Shown piece by piece: positions 2,568-28,092 of a stretch of DNA of 45,166 nt; position 1 is the stretch's first letter, and every line of letters starts with the position of its first letter. The translations under genes were made by a program, and so were the position numbers. Source of the DNA: a virus. A model generated the notes under the pieces. That model was not told where the DNA came from. It was given only the letters and a program-made list of their open reading frames with translations, and did not search any database. Location of the stretch: IMG/VR virus record IMGVR_UViG_3300020281_000040, positions 1-45,166 of that record; one strand, written 5' to 3'.

Positions 2568-2596
2568 ATTATATCATAAATTGATCAAGACGTAAA
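2568..2596 (-). promoter_or_regulatory. Early-type promoter for uvsX
   Basis: On the minus strand, TTTACG (2591-2596), a 17-bp spacer and TATAAT (2568-2573). The predicted mRNA leader is about 17 nt and contains GGAG. The promoter sits within the last codons of the methyltransferase gene, so uvsX can be expressed apart from the modification genes. Confidence 0.7.
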
Positions 2597-3765
2597 GGAT
2601 TATTTTCAACTTTAAGAGTCCTAGTTTTATTGTCTTGCATTACAAAATCAGTTTCTATCATCTGATTATCTAATCTTCCATCGCAAAATCTTAATACGTT
2701 CTCTGCCATGTCTTGTGCAGTTGTAACAGGTACATTTTGACATATGTGATTTGCATTTTTTATACCACCTTGTAACATAAAATCTTCTGGCATTTTCATT
2801 ATAGACAAGCATTCTCGTACAGTTAAAAATCTATCCTCATCTGGATGCGTAAGCATAGTTGGTAAATGACCAACAAAAGCTCCAATATGATCTTTTGGAA
2901 ACTCTATATTTTTTCTCATTATGTTACCACCAGATTCTAGTTTTCTATGTATTCTTTCGCATTTAGCTGCGTCTTTATCAAAACCATTTTTAAACATCCA
3001 CTTGCTAACTTTATCATATTTTGTTTTTGACTCGATGTATGTTAACACGTTAATTGATTTTGTTATTCTCGTATCTTGAAATTCTTTATGCGATATCCCG
3101 CCTTCAAGTTCCTCGAGGACATATCGATAGTACGGGTTTTGACTAGGAACACTAGAATTAGTTAAGACATTCATTCGATCACTAGGATCTCGTTTCACGG
3201 AACGTATCGTATCTTCTATTCTTTCGTATCCTCTTTTTATATATTCAAGTTTAGGTACTTTTTTACCCTTCCAAAAGAAATAAAATGACCTGTCTCTTAC
3301 CTGCCCTAGTCCGTGAAGAATCGACTTTGTTTTATATACTGAGAAAACGTATCCGTTTTCTTCTCCAATTCTTCTAAGATTTTCACGGATCGGCTCTCCA
3401 ACTTTTGAAGCGAATCTTGGTGCGTTTTCGCCCCAGAATACTTTAGGTTTGATAGTGCCAAGGACATAACGCGCTGTGGCAGGCATCCAATCGTTAATAG
3501 CAGCATCAGAGCTAGCTGAAGGATTGAGACTACTGAGGCCAGCACAAGGGCAAACAGTGTTGACAACATCGACACTAGGTAAGTCAGGTACCCTATCGCT
3601 TCCAATGAGATAATAGGGAACTTGTCCTTTATAATATTCCACCAAGTTAAAATCGTTTGCTTTGAAATCTTCATAACTTAAAATATACTCCGGTTTCTTC
3701 TTAAAGACATTTTGCATTGCAATCGTCTCACCACCTATAAGTGGTACTATGCTAGCGTACTTCAT
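2569..3765 (-). CDS. C5-cytosine DNA methyltransferase homologue with clamp-like C-terminal tail
   Basis: A 398-aa member of the DNA (cytosine-5) methyltransferase family. Motif I is a degenerate PLIGGETIAMQ at residues 8-18. Motif IV is CPCAG with catalytic Cys74. Motif VI is ENAPRF (Glu113). Motif VIII is QVRDR (155-159). The C-terminal region has the LTVRE...PEDF and ICQNVPVTTAQDMAENVL segments of motifs IX-X. All catalytic residues appear intact. I start it at the ATG at 3765, which overlaps the epimerase stop codon by one base; a TTG one codon earlier is less likely. The protein ends in RLDQFMI, resembling the C-terminus of gp55 (DLSEFMQ). It could make 5-methylcytosine or, since the phage also encodes a dCMP hydroxymethylase, act on another substrate or with a modified cofactor. 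The family call is firm; the product is open. Confidence 0.85.
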   Translation of the reverse strand: MKYASIVPLIGGETIAMQNVFKKKPEYILSYEDFKANDFNLVEYYKGQVPYYLIGSDRVPDLPSVDVVNTVCPCAGLSSLNPSASSDAAINDWMPATARYVLGTIKPKVFWGENAPRFASKVGEPIRENLRRIGEENGYVFSVYKTKSILHGLGQVRDRSFYFFWKGKKVPKLEYIKRGYERIEDTIRSVKRDPSDRMNVLTNSSVPSQNPYYRYVLEELEGGISHKEFQDTRITKSINVLTYIESKTKYDKVSKWMFKNGFDKDAAKCERIHRKLESGGNIMRKNIEFPKDHIGAFVGHLPTMLTHPDEDRFLTVRECLSIMKMPEDFMLQGGIKNANHICQNVPVTTAQDMAENVLRFCDGRLDNQMIETDFVMQDNKTRTLKVENNPLRLDQFMI

Positions 3766-4514
3766 CAATGTGGCACCGTTCGTCTAATAATATACTCATC
3801 AATTTTAATTGTTGGTTTCCAACCAAGTTGTAGTAAATCAGCGTTATTAGCCGTATTATCTTGTGCCTCACATTCTTCTCCATTAACTAATGGTAGTTCT
3901 TTGCAGCCAGCGATATCAGCTAAAGTATGAACTTGATTGCCTATACCAGTGCCAATATCATATGCAGGTTTTAATGACCTTATATTTTTATTCATAAGTA
4001 AAATTATAGCTTCCACCACGTCATCTACATGTATAAAATCTCTGGTGTGCTTAGTTACATAATCAACTTTATTATTCAGTAATTTAGGAATAAACATATT
4101 TTCTCTAGCACCATCACCGTATACTGTAGTAAATCTTAGTGCAACTTGATGCTCAAATGCAGTTTCTTCGTTTACCTTCTTACTCGTACCGTATGGTGAT
4201 AGCCACCAATTATGTATACAAGAAGAAGACGCGTACATTAATGGTATATTATTATAGTGACAGATCTTTTGTATTCTTGTAGTATTTTCTACATTATTTT
4301 TCCAGTACTTTTCTGGATCTTTTATACTTTGTCTTACGTTTGCATAAGCTGCAAGATGTATGACATAATTACAATCTTTTGGATCAAAGTCTTTTATACA
4401 TTGAGGAGGATCTTGTCTTAAATCCCATTCAATAACTTTATGTCCATCTTTTTCAAGTCTTGTTTTTAAGTGGCTTCCTATAAAACCACGTGAACCTGTT
4501 AACGCTACATTCAT
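3765..4514 (-). CDS. NAD-dependent sugar epimerase/dehydratase (extended SDR)
   Basis: A 249-aa extended short-chain dehydrogenase of the nucleotide-sugar epimerase class. The Rossmann motif GSRGFIGSHL is at residues 7-16, an acidic residue lies at the end of beta-2 (VIEWD), NYVIHLAAYANV follows, and the catalytic YGTSK pair (Tyr and Lys) comes after ASSSC. At 249 aa it is much shorter than GalE (about 340), so the substrate domain is trimmed. Likely substrates are UDP- or GDP-sugars. It overlaps the preceding SGNH gene by 4 bases (ATGA) and the next methyltransferase by 1 base, placing it inside the modification cassette. Making an activated sugar for DNA modification is my inference; a cell-surface sugar role is the alternative. 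Confidence 0.8.
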   Translation of the reverse strand: MNVALTGSRGFIGSHLKTRLEKDGHKVIEWDLRQDPPQCIKDFDPKDCNYVIHLAAYANVRQSIKDPEKYWKNNVENTTRIQKICHYNNIPLMYASSSCIHNWWLSPYGTSKKVNEETAFEHQVALRFTTVYGDGARENMFIPKLLNNKVDYVTKHTRDFIHVDDVVEAIILLMNKNIRSLKPAYDIGTGIGNQVHTLADIAGCKELPLVNGEECEAQDNTANNADLLQLGWKPTIKIDEYIIRRTVPH

Positions 4515-5548
4515 ACGAAAAAATCCTCCAACGTATTTAATTTTTCTTCACCAGTCCAGTGCGGATAGGCAGACCTAGATAGATGTATAGAGTGTGGCAT
4601 TTCCATATTCTTAAAATCAAGTTGACCATCTTTATTTAATAAGTAGTCTACCCATCTAATTATCTTAACTCTTTTTGCCACTTTTTCAAGTTCTTCTCTA
4701 AATACTAACCTACACTTGTTTCTTTGTTCCCAAGTACCCCAAAATGGTTTATTTTTATAGTAACCAGACTTTGGTAATTTTCGAGATTCGTCTTCTATTG
4801 GTAACAACTCGTATATTGAAACATCTTCGATTGGTAATTTTTCAGCGGCTTCGACGTATCTTCTTGCGAGTTGTCTTGTATTTTCTAAATAATCGCCTTC
4901 GATTCTGCAAAGATGATGTCTTACGTCGATATTACCAAAATATATTTCAACTTTATTAAAAGTATTTATGGGAGCAGCATCTTCAATAAACTCTTGGAAA
5001 CCAGTATTTAAAGCGCCATTAAGAGTTTTAAAAGGTACAGAATTAACTACCCAATCTGGTCGATACATGCAAATGGCATGACTGTCACCAATAACTAATT
5101 TATCTGTAATTTTTGGATATTTAATAAATTCAGCTGTATCGTGCATTCTTTTTAAATTATCTAAATCTACGTCATGCCACGCGTTTAATATGGCTCCGCC
5201 AGTCTCTTTGGCTCTATCTAATCTTTCTTTTATCATCTCATGATACGCTGGAAACTCAATACCGACAGAATAAACTTTACCTTTAAACTGCGAGAAGTTA
5301 CGAGTATTTTCTACGTATGGAAATCCTTTGACACCACCAAAAAAATTTAATCCTCCAGTCCAGTCGCTACCGTGGTAGACATACATCTCGTCAAACTCAT
5401 TATGGTCTTCTATCTTACCACCCCAATTGATTTCTATATCAACGCCAGTTTGTTTTAACATATCGGCATATATCACGCCTTGAGCGCCACGATGAGACTG
5501 AGGCCTAGCAGCTATCGGTATAAATGGACAATTCATTATTGCTTTCAT
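4511..5548 (-). CDS. SGNH/GDSL-hydrolase-like protein with clamp-binding-type C-terminus
   Basis: A 345-aa protein that I do not recognise as a named family. It has the landmarks of an SGNH hydrolase-like domain in its second half: GDSHA at 154-158 (candidate nucleophile Ser156), FGNIDVRHHLCR at 204-215 (candidate Asn and His), and MPHSIHLSRSAYPHW near 317-331 with candidate catalytic His residues. The first 150 residues form a separate region rich in aromatic residues and Gly. The last residues are TLEDFFV, matching the C-terminus of this phage's DNA polymerase (ATLEDFFV) over seven positions. The start at 5548 has GGAG 8 nt upstream and overlaps the preceding stop (ATGA). It might transfer or remove an acyl group or other substituent on modified DNA. 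Function is inferred from the fold signature and tail only. Confidence 0.6.
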   Translation of the reverse strand: MKAIMNCPFIPIAARPQSHRGAQGVIYADMLKQTGVDIEINWGGKIEDHNEFDEMYVYHGSDWTGGLNFFGGVKGFPYVENTRNFSQFKGKVYSVGIEFPAYHEMIKERLDRAKETGGAILNAWHDVDLDNLKRMHDTAEFIKYPKITDKLVIGDSHAICMYRPDWVVNSVPFKTLNGALNTGFQEFIEDAAPINTFNKVEIYFGNIDVRHHLCRIEGDYLENTRQLARRYVEAAEKLPIEDVSIYELLPIEDESRKLPKSGYYKNKPFWGTWEQRNKCRLVFREELEKVAKRVKIIRWVDYLLNKDGQLDFKNMEMPHSIHLSRSAYPHWTGEEKLNTLEDFFV

Positions 5549-6615
5549 ACAAAGAACTCCTCTAGTGTATTTTGATCTGTAAGTTCAGTGGCTCTTGATA
5601 CCTTGCGCTTTTCACAAAGTTTTTTATCTTCTCTTATCTGTAAGTATATTCCAAATTGACAAGATAAAACTTCAGTACCATAATACTTTAAACCATCTTG
5701 TTTTTCTCTAAATAACTTAGTACCATCTGGCATGTCTATGTTGTAAGCTTCCGGATGAAACCAGACGTCTTTTGTAAGTCCACATTCTTCTCCATTTTCT
5801 CTTAAGAAGTAAATTGCTTCTGCATATAATTTACGTGGAGCTTCTGGCCACATTCTATTTATCAGATAAACAGCACCCGGCCCAGGAGCACAAAACTTAT
5901 CATCATGATAGTACTTCATTTGTGGCAATACGCTAGTAGAAGCAGCACCGTGAAAACCATAGTACTCACCAATCCCAGGTAATTGTCTGAGTATCGTGTA
6001 AGCTTGTTGCATATTTTGAGCTTCAGATAATTTTTTATAAGTTCCATTATACTTAAATGACGATACCCAGTCCACTACGTCAACCGGATGAAAAGGTCTA
6101 TCTGGATTATTGTATTTTTCACGACAGTAATTTCTTGAAGCAGCTTGAATAGAAGTATGAAGTTCAGTAGTACCCCATATAGGTCTCTTCTTAGTCTTTG
6201 CTATTTCAATATTATGTTTAAGTTCAGCGAGATAAAGTTCGTCATTGTCAGCCAGCTTGTCAAAATCTACGAAACAATCGTTTGGATCAGTGCTGTTGGT
6301 AACTGCCATATGTACTCCACGAGCTCCATAAAAGTGAGATATAATACCATTACCAAGTATATTGAATTTAGACATATCTTGTTGTGCTATGACAGTTCCA
6401 ATATATCTCATTCTATCATCGAGTGTTATAGTTGGATGAAAGTATTCTACGTCTATTCCAAGACCATAGTCTATCTCGCCGTGCCTATTTAAGTTATTAT
6501 ATTCTTCATCTATAAATCCAAGATTTATGCAAGATCTAGTATTAATCTTTTTTAAAAAATGATTAAAATCTAACATTAGATCTTTATCAAAAGACCACCA
6601 GTCATAATTATACAT
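5545..6615 (-). CDS. Alpha-glutamyl/putrescinyl-thymine pyrophosphorylase-like DNA-modifying enzyme with clamp-type tail
   Basis: A 356-aa protein. The region LPGIGEYYGFHGAAS (residues 212-226) followed by FCAPGPGAVYLINRMWP (from about 241) resembles the helix-hairpin-helix glycosylase-like fold of the AGPT pyrophosphorylases. Those enzymes replace the pyrophosphate on an activated 5-hydroxymethyl-pyrimidine in DNA with an amino acid or polyamine. The assignment is by motif recognition and should be checked by profile search. The ATG at 6615 was chosen over one 57 bases upstream because it has AAAGGAG at good spacing and avoids overlap with the HAD gene stop at 6618. The protein ends in TLEEFFV, one conservative change from the DNA polymerase tail. 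Its substrate may be hydroxymethylcytosine rather than hydroxymethyluracil, because the phage's hydroxymethylase is of the gp42 type. Confidence 0.6.
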   Translation of the reverse strand: MYNYDWWSFDKDLMLDFNHFLKKINTRSCINLGFIDEEYNNLNRHGEIDYGLGIDVEYFHPTITLDDRMRYIGTVIAQQDMSKFNILGNGIISHFYGARGVHMAVTNSTDPNDCFVDFDKLADNDELYLAELKHNIEIAKTKKRPIWGTTELHTSIQAASRNYCREKYNNPDRPFHPVDVVDWVSSFKYNGTYKKLSEAQNMQQAYTILRQLPGIGEYYGFHGAASTSVLPQMKYYHDDKFCAPGPGAVYLINRMWPEAPRKLYAEAIYFLRENGEECGLTKDVWFHPEAYNIDMPDGTKLFREKQDGLKYYGTEVLSCQFGIYLQIREDKKLCEKRKVSRATELTDQNTLEEFFV

Positions 6616-6617
6616 GA

Positions 6618-7022
6618 TTACTCCTTTGGAACCAGATGATGATGTATGTGTACGCATTCTATATCTGGACATTCTTTTTTAATTTCTCCAATTTGTATTG
6701 GATCGTCATCAAAGTGTATGTTAATTCTATAGCCAAGCCACTTTAAATGTTGAAACCATTTAGCTTTTGACTGTCCTGATTGTTTTCTATCATTAAAGTC
6801 TTTTGGCTTTGGATTCATAAACAATGGATTATCTATGCCTTTTGCTTTTAGCATTCTTGTGGTTTCTTTTCTAGTATGGATAGATCTTCCAGTCACAATA
6901 ATATCTTTTGGCCCTGGATATATACCGTCATAATCATCTCCCATATATATTACCCCATCAATATCAAATGAATTGATGGGATATTTTGGAGCTGTAAACC
7001 ATGGATCAAAAGGCTTACGCAT
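6618..7022 (-). CDS. Small HAD-superfamily phosphatase
   Basis: A 134-aa HAD-like hydrolase. Motif I DIDGV is near residues 20-24 (nucleophile Asp20, general acid Asp22), the motif II segment VTGRS lies near residue 45, and the motif IV-like FDDDP is near the end. The ATG at 7022 was chosen because GGAGG precedes it by 9 nt; a longer in-frame start at 7139 would overlap the inositol synthase gene by 125 bases and has no merit. It overlaps the INO1 stop by 8 bases. A plausible job is dephosphorylating myo-inositol 3-phosphate from the upstream enzyme, standing in for an inositol monophosphatase, or acting on a nucleotide. Both are inferences from position. Confidence 0.7.
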   Translation of the reverse strand: MRKPFDPWFTAPKYPINSFDIDGVIYMGDDYDGIYPGPKDIIVTGRSIHTRKETTRMLKAKGIDNPLFMNPKPKDFNDRKQSGQSKAKWFQHLKWLGYRINIHFDDDPIQIGEIKKECPDIECVHIHHHLVPKE

Positions 7023-8319
7023 AATCGGTTTCCTCCGCTTGATAAGTGTATGTAAGTCTAGAAGCTTTTGGATTATTTTCTTTTCGCTGTTCTTCAGTAA
7101 TGTCAGTATATTGCCTGTTGGCAAGCATATCGCATTCATATTTAGCCTCGTCAGTTTTAAGTTGTAGTGGTGGAGTTTTTTGAGTCCATGCTGATGGTCC
7201 TCTTAAGTAACCTACGATACCCATTTCAGCGGCTACTTTACAAAATCTAATAGCAGAAACTACTACGCCACCAGAGTTTGGAGAATCTTGGACAGCTAAT
7301 CTAGCTGTAAGTTCGTATCTAGCGCCACCAAATCCATAAGCAACTATATCAAAGTTCGCTATCTTCTGATCTGAAGCGACGTACTTACCTCCCGGCTTTT
7401 GTTGTACAGTTAAAGATGGACCAGCATATAACGTAGCACCAGCCATTGGCTCGTCTCTTACAACGTTTTGACCTTTTAAAACATTTTCTTTTGAGATATG
7501 TTTATTATGCAGTCTTTCTACTTTAGCCATATTTAAGAAATCAGTATTGGCTGTTCTACCAGTCCTAATATTTTCTTGACCTTGAGTAGAACCAGCAGCC
7601 ATATTCATTTGAATATGTTGAGTTACCATAAGTCCAGAATCTATCATAGCACCTTGTAGTACTTCTGACATTCTTGACGCACCCCAAGCTGATCTCATAT
7701 CAGAACCAACAATAGTTAGACCAGCATCGATAAACTTTTGTTCGATTCTCTTAGTATCTTTAGTAGATATGACGGTTGGAATACAGTTTACAAAATGGAC
7801 GCCTGCTTTTAAAGCTACATCGATATAAAACTTAGATAATTTTTCTGAACCAACAGGCGCATAATTAATTAACACATCAACTTCTGTATCTTTAACAATG
7901 TTAACAATATCGTCAAAAGATTTAGCAGCTTCAGCTCCAGTTCTAAATGATACTTCTTCTGGATAATCTAACATATGAGGTGCAACCCCATCAAGTTCAG
8001 GACCAGAATAAACCATCGCACCTTTTTTGATACAACCGGCTGTATTAGAACCATTTTCAAGTATTTCTTCTACATGGTCCATAGCACAGTTAGGAGCAGC
8101 TCGTAAAGCATCTACTAATGGTTTGTTTACTTTTCTTCTATCAACATCAAAGCCAACCACAAACTCGATCTCATTTACTGTATAACCACCGATAGTGTCA
8201 TACATAAGACCAACTTTATCTTCTGGATTTGCTTTGTAATATTGGATGCCTTCAACTAAGGACTTTGCGCAGTTACCGATACCGATAATACCGACTTTTA
8301 TTTTGGACATTTTTGACAT
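7015..8319 (-). CDS. ino1: myo-Inositol-1(3)-phosphate synthase (INO1-like)
   Basis: A 434-aa enzyme of the prokaryotic inositol-phosphate synthase family, which converts glucose 6-phosphate to myo-inositol 3-phosphate using internal NAD cycling. The N-terminal Rossmann motif is VGIIGIGNCAKSLVEGIQYY. Family hallmarks follow: FVVGFDVDRRKV, INYAPVGSEKLSKFY, HFVNCIPTVI, GSDMRSAWGAS and TDFLNMAKVERL. The ATG at 8319 is preferred over the one at 8325 because the AAAGGAG lies 6 nt before it; the upstream ATG directly abuts the Shine-Dalgarno. The gene follows an untranslated gap with a 7-bp inverted repeat. Phage-encoded inositol synthase is unusual. Its place in the modification cassette suggests a substituent for DNA, although osmolyte or lipid metabolism of the host is possible. 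Confidence 0.85.
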   Translation of the reverse strand: MSKMSKIKVGIIGIGNCAKSLVEGIQYYKANPEDKVGLMYDTIGGYTVNEIEFVVGFDVDRRKVNKPLVDALRAAPNCAMDHVEEILENGSNTAGCIKKGAMVYSGPELDGVAPHMLDYPEEVSFRTGAEAAKSFDDIVNIVKDTEVDVLINYAPVGSEKLSKFYIDVALKAGVHFVNCIPTVISTKDTKRIEQKFIDAGLTIVGSDMRSAWGASRMSEVLQGAMIDSGLMVTQHIQMNMAAGSTQGQENIRTGRTANTDFLNMAKVERLHNKHISKENVLKGQNVVRDEPMAGATLYAGPSLTVQQKPGGKYVASDQKIANFDIVAYGFGGARYELTARLAVQDSPNSGGVVVSAIRFCKVAAEMGIVGYLRGPSAWTQKTPPLQLKTDEAKYECDMLANRQYTDITEEQRKENNPKASRLTYTYQAEETDYA

Positions 8320-8346
8320 ATTCATCTCCTTTATATCAGTTTATTT

Positions 8347-8382
8347 ACGTGAGTGGTTTGTCCGGAGTAGAGTAGCTCACGT
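8347..8382 (-). promoter_or_regulatory. Inverted repeat in the INO1 leader
   Basis: A perfect 7-bp inverted repeat, ACGTGAG (8347-8353) and CTCACGT (8376-8382), encloses a 22-nt loop. It spans the stop codon of the UDG-like gene (8377-8379) and ends about 27 nt before the INO1 start. It has no U-tract, so it is not a classical terminator. It may modulate INO1 translation or processing, or be a protein-binding site. Confidence 0.35.
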
Positions 8383-8730
8383 GTATAAGTAGTTATAACA
8401 CTCCTTAATCTTTGTTTTTTCAAATTCTTTATCATTTAATTGTCTGTTTAAACCTGATGGATGTGGCATCTTAAAATGATCTATGTTAAGTTTTTTCAAG
8501 GAGTTTGATGCCACATTACCAAGTGCGATAACTTTATCGTACTTACTCGTAACTTTTAAGCTATCATAATCTATGGTATACTTTTGACCATATTCTTCGC
8601 TACAATTCATAAAGTCGTATCCACTATTTAATTTCCATTCAGCAGTCCACTGATTTAGTTTTCTAAACGTACCAGATTTTTCAACTGATGACGGATTTTG
8701 ACCTACGATTATAACTTTATCCAATCCCAT
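8377..8730 (-). CDS. Uracil-DNA-glycosylase-superfamily-like protein (117 aa)
   Basis: A short UDG-fold candidate. Motif 1-like VIIVGQNPSS is at residues 6-14, a beta-strand DKVIALGNVAS in the middle, and a motif 2-like HPSGLNRQ near residues 89-97. These resemble the G-x-NP and HPS-G/P motifs of the UDG superfamily. At 117 aa it is about half the length of typical family 4/5 enzymes and no Fe-S cysteine set is visible. The start has AGGTAGG upstream and overlaps the dCMP deaminase end by 22 bases. Sitting between dCMP deaminase and the modification enzymes, it may recognise or handle modified bases rather than remove uracil. The superfamily call is moderate. Confidence 0.55.
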   Translation of the reverse strand: MGLDKVIIVGQNPSSVEKSGTFRKLNQWTAEWKLNSGYDFMNCSEEYGQKYTIDYDSLKVTSKYDKVIALGNVASNSLKKLNIDHFKMPHPSGLNRQLNDKEFEKTKIKECYNYLYT

Positions 8731-9167
8731 AATATACCTACCTCATCAAACATTAATGCAGAATCTCTTACTGAATCTTGCCAGTTTTTTGGAACATCTT
8801 GTTCAGGTGTTACAATTCTTTTTATACCGGCTTGAACTAAACCTTTTGCGCAGTCATTACAAACTGGCAATCCATAAACATATAATGTAGAATCTTTTAA
8901 TGACACACCGTTTTCAGCTGCATTATAAATTGCATTCATCTCTGCATGAACTATAAGCCTATATTTTAAAGGCCTATCATTATAATATAGTGGATCGTCA
9001 TCCATGCCTCTAGGAAAACCATTATAGCCTTGTGCTATAACGTTACGATTTCTAACTGCAACGCAACCAACTTGTGTTGATGGATCTTTTGACCATGACG
9101 CCACGAGTTTTGCCATTTCTAAAAATCTTATGTCCCACTTATTTGACAAGATCAAAATGCCTTTCAT
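8709..9167 (-). CDS. cd: Deoxycytidylate (dCMP) deaminase
   Basis: A zinc-dependent deaminase that converts dCMP to dUMP, supplying the thymidylate branch. Zinc motif HAEMNAI supplies the ligand His and catalytic Glu, and VCNDC supplies two Cys ligands. The N-terminal WSKDPSTQVGCVAV and GYNGFPRGM are typical of dCMP deaminases. At 152 aa it is close to normal length. The first ATG (9167) lies inside the hydroxymethylase gene and lacks a clear ribosome-binding site; TTG codons a few residues later (around 9146-9155) are alternatives with AAAGG upstream. It directly follows dCMP hydroxymethylase, so the two enzymes draw on the same dCMP pool. Confidence 0.9.
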   Translation of the reverse strand: MKGILILSNKWDIRFLEMAKLVASWSKDPSTQVGCVAVRNRNVIAQGYNGFPRGMDDDPLYYNDRPLKYRLIVHAEMNAIYNAAENGVSLKDSTLYVYGLPVCNDCAKGLVQAGIKRIVTPEQDVPKNWQDSVRDSALMFDEVGILWDWIKL

Positions 9168-9849
9168 AAACGTGTAAGTTTTGTACTTGCCATATTATAT
9201 CGCCAACTTCCATTTCTCTTCTGTAATCAGCGTCAGCAGCATTAGCAAGATAACAAGAATTATATTCTTGAGTAAGTTGTTCTAAAACATGAAGCTGCCA
9301 AGCATAGTCATTCTTATATCCGTACACGACATCGTTTGAGCGCATTTGGACAACGCAGTGTATTTTAGCATCGCGTATGTAATAAGTAACGGCGTTAGTA
9401 CATATAAAGTCATTCTTACCATCTTCATTATATTCCTCCCATATACTTGGTCTAGTATAAATCATCGTAGCTCTACGGCCATCAAGGTTTGTAAGTAACT
9501 CGTCGAGAACTCTGCCAAACTGATGATGATATTTATCAGAATAAATTATGTGGCCATAGTTGGAGTTAATCTCGCCATAAGTATTTGAAGCGGCTTTCCA
9601 AGCTGCTGGTACGTTTCTATTATAAGTATCAGACATCCAGTTAACATTTGTTGACTGGCTCTCGTACCAAGCCTTTTCGATCTCGATATACTCTTCGTTA
9701 GGTGTACCAAATATTGTAGGTTTGTCTGCCATGAAAGAAGCACCAATCATTTCAATAGTCTTTTGGCCAGTTCTATCAGTTGTAAATTCTTCATTGGCTA
9801 ACGCATCAATAAAGTAATGTTTTATATCAGTTGTGTTTGGATGTATCAT
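9139..9849 (-). CDS. gp42: dCMP hydroxymethylase (T4 gp42 type)
   Basis: A 236-aa thymidylate-synthase-fold enzyme that makes 5-hydroxymethyl-dCMP from dCMP and methylene-tetrahydrofolate. It tracks T4 gp42 along most of its length. Shared segments include KTIEMIGASFMADKPTIFG, GEINSNYGHIIYS, MIYTRPSIWEEYNEDG and FICTNAV (catalytic Cys). MRSNDVVYGYKNDYAW carries the Asp that marks cytosine rather than uracil specificity in this family. The ending LHVYERHFDLV is also gp42-like, though the protein stops about ten residues earlier than T4's. The methylene-THF it uses could be replenished by the phage serine hydroxymethyltransferase at 20180-21325. This is the main evidence that the phage DNA contains hydroxymethylcytosine or a derivative. 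Confidence 0.93.
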   Translation of the reverse strand: MIHPNTTDIKHYFIDALANEEFTTDRTGQKTIEMIGASFMADKPTIFGTPNEEYIEIEKAWYESQSTNVNWMSDTYNRNVPAAWKAASNTYGEINSNYGHIIYSDKYHHQFGRVLDELLTNLDGRRATMIYTRPSIWEEYNEDGKNDFICTNAVTYYIRDAKIHCVVQMRSNDVVYGYKNDYAWQLHVLEQLTQEYNSCYLANAADADYRREMEVGDIIWQVQNLHVYERHFDLVK

Positions 9850-12711: not shown

Positions 12712-13096
12712 GTATTGGACCTTGCCAATCTTCTGGTTTTACCAAATCAGGTAATCCAAGTGGATTAGGTCGGCCTTCTTTAACTCCAACTTCTTTTGAC
12801 ATATTGGCTTTATATACTTCATCCCATGCTTTATTAGCGTCGACGCCAAATGCTTCTAAAGTACCGATCGCAAATACGCATAAGTCAATAATACCATCAA
12901 CCATTTCAGGAGCGTCTTTTTGTTCAAATGCTTTTTTTGTTTCATCAAGTTCTTCTTGCATCATGCCAATTCTAAATTCCATAAACTCTTTTAGTCTTCT
13001 TACTGGAACGTCTGATTGCTGTTCAGCTTGCATCCATTTGTTAACACCATATTTTTTATGCATGTCTTGCATATCTTTAAACCAGTTTGTACTCAT
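12671..13096 (-). CDS. mazG: MazG-like all-alpha NTP pyrophosphatase
   Basis: A 141-aa all-alpha NTP-pyrophosphohydrolase. The metal-binding pattern is in MMQEELDETKKAF followed by PEMVDGIIDLCVFAIGTLEAFG (E-E-x-x-E, then E-x-x-D-x-x-x-D). It starts at an ATG that overlaps the DNA polymerase stop (ATGA) and lies just before the primase-like gene. Such enzymes hydrolyse dNTPs or other nucleotides to monophosphates. T4 gp56, which removes dCTP so that only hydroxymethyl-dCTP enters DNA, belongs to the same broad superfamily. This protein may therefore serve as the dCTP/dUTP pyrophosphatase here; a general MazG role in marine phages is the alternative. Confidence 0.8.
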   Translation of the reverse strand: MSTNWFKDMQDMHKKYGVNKWMQAEQQSDVPVRRLKEFMEFRIGMMQEELDETKKAFEQKDAPEMVDGIIDLCVFAIGTLEAFGVDANKAWDEVYKANMSKEVGVKEGRPNPLGLPDLVKPEDWQGPIHEDNCGNIADSFQ

Positions 13097-15579
13097 ACGA
13101 AAAAATCCTCCAATGTTGCTTTTTCTTCAACCGACCAGCCGACTGAATCTAATATTAATTTAAGTGGTTCTATAAATGTCTTTTCAAATTGTGTATCATA
13201 ATCAACGTATTTATGCAGTCCAAGTTCTTGTGGTAAAGCTTCGTGGAATGATATTACATTTTCTTTTATAGGATTTGGTAGTTTAAGGTAACAAAATTTT
13301 ATTCTATCGCCATTTGTTACAAGTTCATATTTATTTTGTAATTTAAGTTTTTTGATATGATAATTAAATAGTAACGAGCCTCTTACGTGGATAGGACAAC
13401 TTTTTTTGTAAATAGTATCTCTAGCATACCAGTCTGTAATATTAGTAACTCTTCTAGGAAAAGCTACTTCTTCAGGAGATAGAGATTTAAATTGTCGTTT
13501 AAAATCTTGAATATAGCTTTGAGTTTGATTTTCAGTGCCTGATATTATTAACTTAAATATTTCTTTAAACTTACCACGAACGACTTCTGGAGTGGAAGAC
13601 TTGATAGCTTCAATACCCATAATCTTAAGCTTTGGTTCTTTGTATTGCACGCCTTCATTATTATGTACGTTAAGTATGTAACGTTTTTTAGCTGTCCAAA
13701 TACCACTGTCAGATATACCTTCACGAGCCATGACCATTCTTTTTTCATAAGCATTCATATTATCAAATAGTTTATCATAGGCTTTTTGTAATAGTGGTTC
13801 GAAATGTTCTTTACAAATTTTATCGAGAAAAGTAACTGGATTGTTTGGTTTAAATTTTTCAACTAACTTACCGAAGTTAACATACAAAGAATCTGTATCG
13901 ATAGCAATAACGTAATCGTCTTCTGTTTTAAGTATGTCATTCATTCCAGCGTTCATGGCTTTTTCAGCCCATTGTATAGCAAGTTGACCAGATTTAGTTA
14001 CGCCTTCAGCTAATCTAATATCAAAATAATGAAAATGTTTATTACCAAGAGCGCCATATAAGCTATTAAGAAGTATTTTAATAGCCATCTGGCGGTTTTC
14101 CAAAGTATTGATTTCCTTATCCAGTTCATAGCTGTAAGCTCCTTGCATTTGTTTTTGTGCTGCAATCATCATATTTTTAACTGATACACGCTCATCATAA
14201 TATTCTTTAATGATTTGTGGTAACACGCCTTGGAAATCTTTGCGATAAGTAGAACCATTTGCAGCTACTGCATGTTCACTTGTAACTGATTTACCAGCAA
14301 GATAATAACCAACACCGTCTGTCTCAGACTGATTAATTATAGTTTCTGGAGACATGTTATATTGTACAATTAAATTAGGATAAAGAGAGTTTAAATCAAA
14401 AGATACTACCCAATCATGCCTGCCAATGTATGGCTCTTTAACATAACCACCCTCAAAAGGCCTATATGGCATTTCTTCTCTTTGAACTGGAACCACAACT
14501 TTACGTTGATTAAGTCTACGATATATGATAGATTCCCATATGGCAGTAACACCAAAAGTATCTTGATAGTTGACACCACCTTTGTACGCGATAGTCATGG
14601 CCAATGTAATTAGCCCCATCTTTTCTTCAAGACGATCTACAAGTTGTACGTCTTTCATATTATAGTCAATATATTTTTGATGATCGTCTTTATATAAATT
14701 TTTAAGAGAACCTGATTCTTCATATGAGAGTTTCTTTTCACCGAGTACAACATACGCAATATGATTTAAGGCATAAGATTCTTGTGGACCGTAACTGTAA
14801 CCGAACTTTTGAAACAGTTCCATATAATCTAAACATTGAATGCCTGGGATCTCGTATATGACTTCAGTTTTTCCACGTTTAACTATTTCACGAGCCTCTA
14901 AATTAAGACCCCATGGAGAAAACTTTAGTATCTCGCCAATACCTAAGACTTTTGATACTCTATTAACTAAATACGGTATATCAAAAAATCTTACGTTCCA
15001 TCCAGTTATAACATCTGGTATAACTTCTGGATGCGACCAGAACTCTAAAAATTTTCGAAGAAGTTCTTCTTCACTATTACATTTAATATACTTGACGTCT
15101 TTTATAAGTGCTTTAGTTGTATCAAATTCTCCATAACCCCAAACGTGATATGTAGAGAATTTACTTGATTTATATGTTATCGATAGAACTGTTTGACTTG
15201 CTTCACTTGGATGTGGAAATCCATTATCGTAATCAGTTTCAATATCAAAAGTACCTACATTTATATCTTGACGATTAAACTCTATATCTCTTGGAAACTT
15301 TTCAGTAATGTATTGTTGAACAAATTTTTTGTTACCATAAACGTGTCTGCCACCAACATCTGTGTTTTGTCTTAGCCATTGATTTGCTTCGTACATGCTA
15401 GGGAAATCTAGTGGAGATACGATATTGCCGTCAAGACCGACATGACCGCTTTCTTTTTTAGAACTTACAAAAAATCTCGGTTGAAAATGATCTTTTTTAG
15501 CAACGCGATTGCCATTGTTATCGTATCCACGATAAAATATATTATTTTTAAATCTTAAAACGTTTGTATAGAATGCCAT
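13093..15579 (-). CDS. gp43: Family B DNA polymerase gp43
   Basis: The replicative polymerase, 828 aa with the start at 15579 (MAFYTNVLRFKNNIFYRG); an upstream GTG at 15600 would lie over the promoter. The 3'-5' exonuclease motifs are VGTFDIETD, NVRFFDIPYL and YNMKDVQLVD. Polymerase motifs are SFDLNSLYPNLI (A), ILLNSLYGALGN (B) and IDTDSLYVNF (C). It is about 70 residues shorter than T4 gp43. The C-terminus KATLEDFFV corresponds to the tail by which T4/RB69 gp43 binds the gp45 clamp. The promoter -10 ends only 9 nt before the ATG, so its own transcript should be nearly leaderless, leaving no room for the T4-type gp43 operator hairpin on that message. Confidence 0.96.
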   Translation of the reverse strand: MAFYTNVLRFKNNIFYRGYDNNGNRVAKKDHFQPRFFVSSKKESGHVGLDGNIVSPLDFPSMYEANQWLRQNTDVGGRHVYGNKKFVQQYITEKFPRDIEFNRQDINVGTFDIETDYDNGFPHPSEASQTVLSITYKSSKFSTYHVWGYGEFDTTKALIKDVKYIKCNSEEELLRKFLEFWSHPEVIPDVITGWNVRFFDIPYLVNRVSKVLGIGEILKFSPWGLNLEAREIVKRGKTEVIYEIPGIQCLDYMELFQKFGYSYGPQESYALNHIAYVVLGEKKLSYEESGSLKNLYKDDHQKYIDYNMKDVQLVDRLEEKMGLITLAMTIAYKGGVNYQDTFGVTAIWESIIYRRLNQRKVVVPVQREEMPYRPFEGGYVKEPYIGRHDWVVSFDLNSLYPNLIVQYNMSPETIINQSETDGVGYYLAGKSVTSEHAVAANGSTYRKDFQGVLPQIIKEYYDERVSVKNMMIAAQKQMQGAYSYELDKEINTLENRQMAIKILLNSLYGALGNKHFHYFDIRLAEGVTKSGQLAIQWAEKAMNAGMNDILKTEDDYVIAIDTDSLYVNFGKLVEKFKPNNPVTFLDKICKEHFEPLLQKAYDKLFDNMNAYEKRMVMAREGISDSGIWTAKKRYILNVHNNEGVQYKEPKLKIMGIEAIKSSTPEVVRGKFKEIFKLIISGTENQTQSYIQDFKRQFKSLSPEEVAFPRRVTNITDWYARDTIYKKSCPIHVRGSLLFNYHIKKLKLQNKYELVTNGDRIKFCYLKLPNPIKENVISFHEALPQELGLHKYVDYDTQFEKTFIEPLKLILDSVGWSVEEKATLEDFFV

Positions 15580-15588
15580 TATGTAATT

Positions 15589-15617
15589 ATTATACCACAC
15601 TTTTTCATAAATGTAAA
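15589..15617 (-). promoter_or_regulatory. Early-type promoter for gp43
   Basis: TTTACA (15612-15617), 17-bp spacer, TATAAT (15589-15594) on the minus strand. The ATG is at 15579, so transcription would begin at or within about 3 nt of the start codon. The -35 is embedded in the 29-bp repeat. Confidence 0.75.
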
Positions 15618-23986: not shown

Positions 23987-24664
23987 TCATGCTCCGTATG
24001 TTGAAGTTTTTTCAAGTGCAATCCAATATTTTACACCTACCTCTTTGTGTTTGAATTGCGTTATTAATCTAGAGGATATTTCTACATCGTAATCACCAGC
24101 TAGGATTTTAAGATTAGAAATTTTGATGACAAAATTAAAGACAGCGTCCTGTTTAAATTCACCATCTATATCAATAGAAAATGCGTTTGATGTTGCATTT
24201 TGGTTCTCAACAATTGAGAGACTTAACACGCCATCTTTTGCTGATATTGATAATTCGTCGTGACCTAACGTAGAAGCAGCTTTTTTAAGTTTATTTAAAG
24301 TATCGTTATCTAAAGTAAACTTAACGTCTGGCTCTGGCATCGTTACGTCTTTTGTCGGTGTTGTAACTGTTTCTTCAGCAGCATAGAAGTATTTAACTTT
24401 TGATCTACCGCTTTCATCTTGAACGATAACAAAGTCATCTTCAAATTTTAAGTCTGGATTATTAACTAATCCCATAACACCAATGAATTCATTTAAATCA
24501 TATATACCAAAATCTTTTTCAAAGTTTTCGGCGATATCAGCTGTTGCCACTACGTTTTTAGCTTCACTGATAGTTTTTATAGTTGATCCAGTTTTAATCA
24601 AAAGGTTTTGATTAATACCAGAAAAGTTCCTAAGAACGTCTACAGTACTTTCACTTAATTGCAT
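23987..24664 (-). CDS. gp45: Sliding clamp gp45
   Basis: A 225-aa PCNA-like clamp (T4 228 aa). It begins MQLSESTVDVLRNFSGINQN and contains the gp45 segments IYDLNEFIGVMGL and ISISAKDG-like strands (ELSISAKDGVLSLSI). It forms a trimeric ring that tethers polymerase gp43 and, in T4, also the late sigma factor gp55 and co-activator gp33. Its own early-type promoter lies at 24698-24726, and AAGG precedes the ATG. It is the predicted docking site for the LEDFFV-type tails found on the modification enzymes. Confidence 0.95.
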   Translation of the reverse strand: MQLSESTVDVLRNFSGINQNLLIKTGSTIKTISEAKNVVATADIAENFEKDFGIYDLNEFIGVMGLVNNPDLKFEDDFVIVQDESGRSKVKYFYAAEETVTTPTKDVTMPEPDVKFTLDNDTLNKLKKAASTLGHDELSISAKDGVLSLSIVENQNATSNAFSIDIDGEFKQDAVFNFVIKISNLKILAGDYDVEISSRLITQFKHKEVGVKYWIALEKTSTYGA

Positions 24665-26430: not shown

Positions 26431-27485
26431 GCTATCTCTAAGGTTTGCGCTTCAGTCATAAGTTCACGCATCTGAACTTTTATCTTATCTTTATCTAAAT
26501 CTGTATCAACTGCATCGATATACGTATCAACAATTTCTGTAGTATCTTCGAAGTTCATGTCTTCATCTTCGACGTTTGCACCCATAAACTCGTTAAAGTT
26601 TTCTGCTATCTTTAACTCGTATATGTCTTGATTCTGTATGTTGTCTATAAATCTATCAAATGTAAAAGGATCAGTCTTTTCTGCGACTACGACCTTTACA
26701 AATTTTTTAGATAAATTTTTATTATAACTATTATAATCTATTTCTTTGTCATTGTAAACGATTTTTTCAAATAAAGTGTTATTATTTCTTATTTTTTCTA
26801 TATGTCTTGTTTCAGTATCAAGTATATGAAAGAACTTCGGATCATGCGCATCTGACCAAAAGAACTCCATTTGCGAACCAAGATACCAGATATTGTCTTT
26901 TTTAGAACCTACGTGATAATGACCAGTTAAAACTAATTCAAATCTTTTAAATATATCTGGACTCATGCCATGCGTGTTAGTTAATCCTCTCATCATTTCA
27001 AAACCTTTAAGTTCTAGATGAGCGCCTATCCAATCAGCTTTACAATCTTGTATGAAGTTCATAGACTGCTGATAGTTATCTTGACATATCCAAGGGACTA
27101 ATCCTATATTCAAAGAACCATATTTCAACACTTTTGGTTCCATTACTATATGGACTTCATTCATATAATGGCCTAGGCATTCTTTTAAACCATTTAATTC
27201 ATTAGTGTTCTTATAATACGTGTCATGATTCCCAGGAATAATGTCCATTGTCATTCCACGTTTTCTAAGTCTATCTAAAAAAACTCTTCTATTATGATTT
27301 AGTGCTTTAAAATTTACAAACTTACGATGATCGTAATAATCTCCAAGGTGTAGTATATGTTTTATTCCTTGCTTTTCACACTCAGGAAAAAATACTTCAT
27401 TGTAAAACTTTTCTGAATTATCTAAAAATATTTCTGAAGAGTTACGTATACCACAATGCGTATCGTTAAGTATCGCTATTTTCAT
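26427..27485 (-). CDS. gp47: Recombination nuclease subunit gp47 (Mre11/SbcD-like)
   Basis: A 352-aa metallophosphoesterase nuclease, partner of gp46. The phosphoesterase motifs are NDTHCGIR, HLGDYYDHR, IPGNHDTYY and LTGHYHVGS. Near-identical length to T4 gp47 (339). It overlaps the gp55 stop and the gp46 start by 4 bases each, so 55-47-46 form one coupled operon. Confidence 0.96.
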   Translation of the reverse strand: MKIAILNDTHCGIRNSSEIFLDNSEKFYNEVFFPECEKQGIKHILHLGDYYDHRKFVNFKALNHNRRVFLDRLRKRGMTMDIIPGNHDTYYKNTNELNGLKECLGHYMNEVHIVMEPKVLKYGSLNIGLVPWICQDNYQQSMNFIQDCKADWIGAHLELKGFEMMRGLTNTHGMSPDIFKRFELVLTGHYHVGSKKDNIWYLGSQMEFFWSDAHDPKFFHILDTETRHIEKIRNNNTLFEKIVYNDKEIDYNSYNKNLSKKFVKVVVAEKTDPFTFDRFIDNIQNQDIYELKIAENFNEFMGANVEDEDMNFEDTTEIVDTYIDAVDTDLDKDKIKVQMRELMTEAQTLEIA

Positions 27486-28072
27486 TGCATAAACTCGCTT
27501 AAGTCTGAATCAGCTATCTTGCTTCTTCTTTTCTTCTTTTCTGTTTTAACAAACTCTTTTATTTCTTTGTCTGTAGTTCGAACTCTTTCTATTCTATCTC
27601 TTAAAGTATCTACAAAGTGCGTTGATACTTGTTCGCCAACGCCACCACCTTCAAGATCGTTATCAACAAAATTCTCAATGCCAGCTTTTGTAAGATATTT
27701 TAATTTAATTTCTTGTTGTTTCTTTTCTTTCGTTATTCTACGTAAGAAAGCGTACCAAGTTATTTGTGTAAAGTAAGCAAAAGCGTTTGGCTTACCGGTT
27801 CTAGTGGCAGCTTCTAAATTATAGTTACTAATAGCTTTTAAACAGTTTTCAACTGCATCCATAACCATCTCTTCTCTATAAGTATATCTAATAAAATTAG
27901 CTTTATGAGACAAACCTTCAGCTATTCTTAAAAAACAAGTTGCGATATAGTCTGGTACTTTAGGTATTGTCGTTTCGTTTTTCTTAGCTTCTTCGACTTT
28001 CTCTACGTACGTGACTACTGCAGTAGAAAAATCATTATTATTCACGTAATGAATACTTTTTTTACGGGCCAT
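27482..28072 (-). CDS. gp55: Late-transcription sigma factor gp55
   Basis: A 196-aa T4 gp55-like sigma factor that directs host RNA polymerase to TATAAATA late promoters. A sigma-70 region-2-like core is visible (REEMVMDAVENCLKAISNYN, NAFAYFTQITWYAFLRRI). The ATG at 28072 is chosen because AAAGGTGG lies 5 nt before it; an ATG at 28087 lies before that SD. The C-terminus SDLSEFMQ is an acidic-hydrophobic tail of the kind T4 gp55 uses to bind gp45. The six TATAAATA promoters in this window are its expected targets. Confidence 0.92.
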   Translation of the reverse strand: MARKKSIHYVNNNDFSTAVVTYVEKVEEAKKNETTIPKVPDYIATCFLRIAEGLSHKANFIRYTYREEMVMDAVENCLKAISNYNLEAATRTGKPNAFAYFTQITWYAFLRRITKEKKQQEIKLKYLTKAGIENFVDNDLEGGGVGEQVSTHFVDTLRDRIERVRTTDKEIKEFVKTEKKKRRSKIADSDLSEFMQ

Positions 28073-28092
28073 TTTACCACCTTTCATAATAT

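Follow-up and report, generated by a model that had tools for sequence, protein, structure and literature searches.

Probable sliding-clamp tails shared by unrelated DNA-modifying enzymes in marine T4-like phages

We analyzed a 45,166-nucleotide stretch of viral DNA (positions 1 to 45,166 of IMG/VR record IMGVR_UViG_3300020281_000040; hereafter the window), which is a portion of a T4-like phage genome with 57 genes, all those of interest lying on the minus strand. Three proteins encoded there, a homolog of the DNA cytosine-5 methyltransferases (C5-MTase), a protein with an SGNH-hydrolase fold, and a protein related to the 5-hmdU DNA kinase/aGPT-pyrophosphorylase family (HMUDK-like), end in short peptides like the one at the C-terminus of the phage DNA polymerase, gp43. 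These tails most likely bind the sliding clamp gp45, as do those of T4 gp43, gp55, and gp33, and would thereby tether at least four unrelated families of DNA-modifying enzymes to it.

A sequence-only reading of this DNA had named the proteins with gp43-like ends, and the five tailed genes that we found in the window match it exactly. Using a loose pattern, [LVI][acidic/polar]x[FL][FLMY] at most five residues from the C-terminal end, we found exactly five matches among the 57 genes (gp43, the late sigma factor gp55, the C5-MTase homolog, the SGNH protein, and the HMUDK-like protein). The background of this pattern is 1.4% of interior 10-mers, which gives a binomial P of ~0.001 for a pattern picked after the tails had been seen. 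A strict motif, [TSN]L[ED][ED]F[FM], has three occurrences in the 57 window proteins, all of them at the very C-terminal end. Because the pattern was chosen in this way, conservation of the tails in independent homologs is a stronger test than the window statistics, and the tails passed it.

Conservation of the tails and their possible origins

Homologs were collected from IMG/VR by internal peptide patterns, with the tail playing no part in their selection, which gave 224 marine phage loci. We counted distinct proteins with a relaxed tail pattern; these sequences are related, so that the counts are not independent. The tail was kept in 391 of 394 proteins (HMUDK/AGPT-like, 88/89; SGNH, 94/94; C5-MTase-like, 130/131; gp43, 50/51; and alpha-glucosyltransferase, or alpha-GT, 29/29). 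As controls from the same operons, we used the inositol-phosphate synthase homolog (MIPS), a HAD phosphatase-like protein, dCMP hydroxymethylase, dCMP deaminase, and a nucleotide-sugar epimerase, of which 6 of 417 had a tail-like end (0/84, 0/85, 1/97, 4/91, and 1/60, respectively). When proteins were grouped into clusters at 70% identity and scored with a stricter pattern, 25 of 27 enzyme clusters carried the tail (HMUDK, 5/6; SGNH, 12/12; C5-MTase, 5/6; alpha-GT, 3/3), as did five of six gp43 clusters, and none of the 63 control clusters, drawn from all five families, had it. The two enzyme clusters missing the stricter pattern end in the near-variants TLEQWI and DLTSFI. Window statistics, conservation in homologs, and cluster counts together rule out chance as the source of the tails.

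The alpha-GT family emerged from the remaining genes of these loci. Among 2,345 other open reading frames (ORFs), 49 matched the loose pattern, and 29 of these 49 belong to one family, all 29 members of which carry the tail. This fourth tailed family is homologous to T4 alpha-GT (PF11440, 1.3e-33; structure 1xv5, 9.8e-36; for example L186:529-1845). The marine alpha-GT occupies the position of the HMUDK and SGNH genes, upstream of the epimerase and C5-MTase genes, and has a C-terminal extension past the part that aligns with the T4 enzyme, terminating in a gp43-like tail.

Conservation is concentrated in the tail itself. Mean pairwise identity is 0.62-0.88 over the five core tail residues and, in the enzymes, 0.19-0.39 over the 15 residues upstream, and the linkers ahead of the tail differ in length as well as in sequence. 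A conserved tail beside a varying flank is what the sequence-only reading had proposed to look for in an alignment. The pattern matches the one described for T4 gp55, in which a conserved clamp epitope is joined on by a segment that diverges in sequence and varies in length (PMC2988020). Two large marine contigs (157 and 139 genes) share gp43, gp55, HMUDK, SGNH, and C5-MTase as their conserved tailed proteins, and a third (159 genes) has gp43, gp55, SGNH, and C5-MTase.

The tail could also be simply a nucleotide artifact, in which GAGGAG or GAGGA, encoding Glu-Glu near the stop codon, serves an overlapping gene downstream as its Shine-Dalgarno (SD) sequence. In the window, the HMUDK and SGNH genes indeed end in GAG GAG/GAT TTY TTY GTA TGA, where the ATG of the following gene overlaps as ATGA (4511-5568), and SD-like words occur in the tail ends of 39/89 HMUDK, 72/94 SGNH, and 27/29 alpha-GT genes. 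However, 118 of 131 C5-MTase genes and 32 HMUDK genes carry the tail with no SD word and no overlapping start. Conversely, in 49 of 60 cases an epimerase gene overlaps the start of the following gene, yet just one epimerase has a tail-like end. The Leu and Phe positions are also conserved despite codon variation (39-41 codon strings per family in three enzyme families), and tails from Aeromonas phages differ in sequence. Tail codons probably double as SD sequences in some genes, but the SD-less, non-overlapping tails and the untailed overlapping epimerases rule out translational coupling as the sole cause, and we regard the artifact as highly improbable.

The tails may instead have spread by recombination or duplication of the short 3' end of gp43 and persisted by descent with little function. 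The last 24 nucleotides of the window gp43 and SGNH genes differ at a single position. The convergent origin favored by the sequence-only reading was thus not established; the tails could equally have arisen by duplication of a 3' end. Copying may explain how the tails arose, but not why the marine loci keep them down to ~45% identity while codons and linkers drift, and the C5-MTase tail (LDxFMV) is unlike the gp43 tail of the same contig. Persistence with little function is therefore very unlikely.

Clamp docking and its alternatives

Docking on gp45 is the reading that we favor. The C-terminal motifs of T4 gp43, gp55, and gp33 all target gp45, and those of gp43 and gp55 are interchangeable (PMC2988020), and a gp45-peptide structure is available from RB69 (1b8h; PMC3012046). 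The genome that encodes the tailed enzymes also encodes a T4-type clamp. The strongest functional argument is a division of labor. The tailed proteins are DNA-acting enzymes or fusion partners of such enzymes, and the precursor enzymes (dCMP hydroxymethylase, dCMP deaminase, MIPS, HAD, and epimerase), which act on small molecules, are without tails.

Natural variants in Aeromonas phages bear on the same point. In phage 44RR, SGNH and HMUDK are joined in one 795-aa fusion protein, in the order opposite to that of the window genes. A Lys-rich linker takes the place of the SGNH tail where the two meet, and the new C-terminus bears just one tail, SLDGLFAI. The SGNH protein of phiAS4 ends in TLELFDI, and gp43 of both 44RR and phiAS4 ends in NLFDMFDI; the Aeromonas enzyme tails thus appear to resemble the Aeromonas form of gp43. 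In cyanophage S-TIM5, the C5-MTase homolog is without a tail and we found no gp43 or gp45 homolog in the record, which is consistent with co-occurrence of tail and clamp. The claim that unrelated enzymes dock on the clamp is well supported, as predicted binding, by conservation, untailed neighbors, and the Aeromonas fusion.

Several observations weigh against this reading. In phage XG4, the C5-MTase homolog (~31% identical) lacks a tail, though gp45 is present and gp43 ends in SLDDLFM, contrary to the co-occurrence of tail and clamp. An untailed enzyme beside a tailed gp43 had been put forward as evidence against docking, and this one case was found. The peptide pocket of RB69 gp45 is partly conserved in the window clamp, in that an alignment at ~28% identity places hydrophobic residues at RB69 positions 39, 107, 109, and 217 but shows no conservation of Trp199 or Arg32. 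No tail was found on T4 alpha-GT, beta-GT, and Dam, RB69 ORF003c, Klebsiella JD18 alpha-GT, or the Dam-type homologs of the six cyanophages examined. These proteins, together with a putative glycosyltransferase discussed below, rule out the tail as a general trait of phage modifying enzymes. A T4-type baseplate hub protein in all three marine contigs has the lookalike end GLQSFFT within a folded Pfam domain; because of this, C-terminal resemblance by itself is no proof of clamp binding, and not every C-terminal xxFFx can be taken as a clamp tail. Finally, the predominance of alpha-glucosylation in T4 is reported not to stem mainly from gp45 binding, the share of alpha-GT being mostly set by expression (PMC13216743).

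This last result also fits a more general role, in which the tails bind gp45 so that the enzymes work processively, or are recruited late, on any clamp-loaded DNA and not specifically behind the fork. T4 gp45 doubles as an activator of late transcription (PMC2988020), and we consider this role possible, at well under even chances. The tails could also bind another shared partner, such as the late RNA polymerase, gp32, or the clamp loader, or the enzymes and polymerase could bind one another. The end of gp55 resembles the enzyme tails, but the ends of T4 gp43, gp55, and gp33 all target gp45 and this kind of peptide has no other known partner, so that a different one is unlikely.

In the clamp-docking reading, dCMP hydroxymethylase of the window phage would produce 5-hydroxymethyl-dCMP, which would be incorporated into DNA as 5-hydroxymethylcytosine (5hmC). 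The tails would then hold the HMUDK/AGPT-like protein, SGNH protein, C5-MTase homolog, and, in related loci, alpha-GT on gp45 around DNA. As gp45 on DNA trails the polymerase (PMC3012046), the clamp-held enzymes could act on the new duplex while gp45 follows the polymerase or remains on the DNA. Tethering would raise local concentration and processivity, ahead of host nuclease action. We infer from the tails that the enzymes bind gp45; the timing of modification, which would place it directly behind the fork, and the final base chemistry are likewise predictions.

Tailed enzymes, operon neighbors, and the modified base

Features of the window are listed in Table 1. The sequence-only reading had placed three adjacent enzymes at 2569-6615. 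The tails are there, but position 6615 falls within the HMUDK ORF and the epimerase gene intervenes. Because most homologs begin there, the true start of the HMUDK-like protein is probably window residue M21 (position 6612).

Table 1. Tailed proteins, untailed neighbors, and replication proteins in the window.
Feature	Position	Strand	Remarks
C5-MTase homolog (DNA cytosine-5 methyltransferase)	2569..3768	-	PF00145; C-terminus ...NPLRLDQFMI
Tail RLDQFMI of C5-MTase homolog	2572..2592	-	Candidate clamp-type C-terminal peptide
NAD-dependent nucleotide-sugar epimerase/dehydratase	3765..4514	-	PF01370; without tail, internal control
SGNH/GDSH-hydrolase-fold protein	4511..5548	-	phrog_13881; C-terminus ...NTLEDFFV
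Tail TLEDFFV of SGNH protein	4514..4534	-	Candidate clamp-type C-terminal peptide
HMUDK_hel/AGPT-pyrophosphorylase-superfamily protein	5545..6672	-	PF18723 at residues 200-296; C-terminus ...NTLEEFFV
Tail TLEEFFV of HMUDK-like protein	5548..5568	-	Candidate clamp-type C-terminal peptide
HAD-type phosphatase-like protein	6618..7139	-	phrog_415; without tail
Inositol-3-phosphate/cyclitol-phosphate synthase homolog (MIPS)	7015..8325	-	TIGR03450, 1.6e-62; 1gr0, 1.2e-51; without tail
dCMP hydroxymethylase (T4 gp42 type)	9139..9849	-	1b49 match, 3.8e-64; without tail
gp43 family B DNA polymerase	13093..15600	-	C-terminus ...ATLEDFFV
gp45 sliding clamp	23987..24664	-	Presumed docking partner; phrog_223, 2.1e-73; T4/RB69 gp45 structures
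gp55 late sigma factor	27482..28087	-	C-terminus ...SDLSEFMQ

Among the C5-MTase homologs, the motifs CPCAGLS, GENAP, and QxRxR are invariant. Motif IV PC, motif VI ENx, and motif VIII QxRxR together with PF00145 place the window protein, at sequence level, among the DNA cytosine-5 methyltransferases. The SGNH protein had no match in the Pfam search and was assigned by family to phrog_13881. Its predicted model (pLDDT 79.7) matched SGNH acetylhydrolases (PAF-acetylhydrolase-type structures) in Foldseek at 1.5e-5. The blocks GDSH, GNID, and S[IV]H are invariant in 16 homologs, so that blocks I, III, and V and the fold of the SGNH/GDSL superfamily are all present. The tail region (residues 331-345) has a pLDDT below 50, with a short helix predicted at residues 340-344. 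Another family, phrog_17781, unites SGNH and HMUDK in a single chain.

The HMUDK-like protein scored 40.4 bits against PF18723, the 5-hmdU DNA kinase helical domain (gathering score 25), which likens it to the 5-hmdU DNA kinase/aGPT-pyrophosphorylase family of thymidine-hypermodifying phages. It differs from that family in that no Walker A motif (P-loop, GxxxxGK[ST]) was found in 15 homologs, which makes the label of kinase doubtful, and in that the window phage encodes a dCMP and not a dUMP hydroxymethylase. Its substrate is for this latter reason more likely to be 5hmC DNA than 5hmdU DNA. A confident fold could not be assigned and was dropped, as the predicted model was poor (pLDDT 54.9).

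The base itself is indicated by the thymidylate-synthase homolog of the window, which matched T4 gp42 (1b49) at 3.8e-64 and the best thymidylate synthase at ~1e-7. As this homolog appears to be a dCMP hydroxymethylase, 5hmC would be expected in the window DNA, and 5-hydroxymethyluracil (5hmU) is disfavored.

Pfam also identified dCMP deaminase, inositol-phosphate synthase, and a UDG-like protein in the operon. The last is a UDG-superfamily protein of 117 aa at 8377-8730, inside the modification operon, and was not found in some related loci. The MIPS and HAD genes lie directly upstream of HMUDK/SGNH and co-occur with them in most related loci, which suggests a base decorated with inositol or a cyclitol. 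Decoration of 5hmC with a cyclitol or sugar is plausible, albeit with low confidence. In the literature that we searched, no paper was found tying a phage inositol-phosphate synthase to DNA modification. The whole 5hmC-hypermodification line might sit on the gp45 trimer, with base flipping and transfer by the HMUDK-like protein, chemistry by the SGNH protein, the C5-MTase homolog, and an inositol or cyclitol donor made by MIPS and HAD, so that a new kind of inositol-like base would be installed along with replication; we offer this scheme tentatively, as one that is rather less likely than not to hold in full.

Other phages carry other genes at these positions. In 44RR, an SGLT-like sodium/solute symporter (L033:9190-10713) is located immediately upstream of the SGNH-HMUDK fusion, instead of MIPS and HAD, and possibly imports a donor precursor. 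In phiAS4 (L034:9775-13047), L193:4093-6245, and similar loci, a UDP-galactopyranose mutase and the putative glycosyltransferase mentioned above (phrog_14998), which is without a tail, lie next to SGNH or C5-MTase, in some cases upstream of the latter. This pair may form a third interchangeable module, hinting at galactofuranosyl-5hmC. In phage C48C1, gp43 is directly followed by a D12-class adenine methylase (L240:25481-26365) that ends in STLDAFFG; with the homologs in six cyanophages untailed, this tail is possibly a recent gain.

Precedents and significance

The closest precedent is the interaction of T4 alpha-GT with gp45 (Sommer 2004, cited and reproduced in 2026 in PMC13216743; also PMC6024577). 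As is proposed here for the marine phages, a hypermodifying enzyme that acts on 5hmC meets the phage clamp, and the marine homologs of this enzyme carry tails at the same operon position as the other tailed enzymes. The T4 enzyme, however, has no tail at its C-terminus and still pulled down gp45 when His-tagged there (PMC13216743), whereas here a portable C-terminal peptide recurs across at least four families of unrelated enzymes. The clamp motifs of T4 gp43, gp55, and gp33 have in common with the enzyme tails a short acidic and hydrophobic extreme C-terminus and, in gp55, a variable linker, but belong to replication and transcription proteins and not to base-modification enzymes.

A more distant parallel is the eukaryotic DNMT1, a DNA cytosine methyltransferase tethered to the PCNA clamp via a short peptide. 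The likeness to the C5-MTase homolog lies in the enzyme and its sliding-clamp peptide; clamp, peptide, and purpose are different, and we claim no homology of the tails.

The sequence-only reading knew of no modification system organized in this way. That statement gives way where T4 alpha-GT and gp45 are concerned and stands for the shared tail, as our literature search found no description of a tail that is portable and recurs in at least four unrelated families of DNA-modifying enzymes. What is new is this tail; that T4 alpha-GT touches gp45 was already known.

These results point to an undescribed modified cytosine, possibly with an inositol or cyclitol group. Unknown clamp-coupled DNA enzymes can be picked out with the tail as their sequence signature, and DNA modification in step with replication becomes testable through a seven-residue deletion. 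The isolated observation on T4 alpha-GT and gp45 would thus become a general rule for a widespread group of marine phages, in which the enzymes that act on DNA are tailed and those that make the precursors are not.

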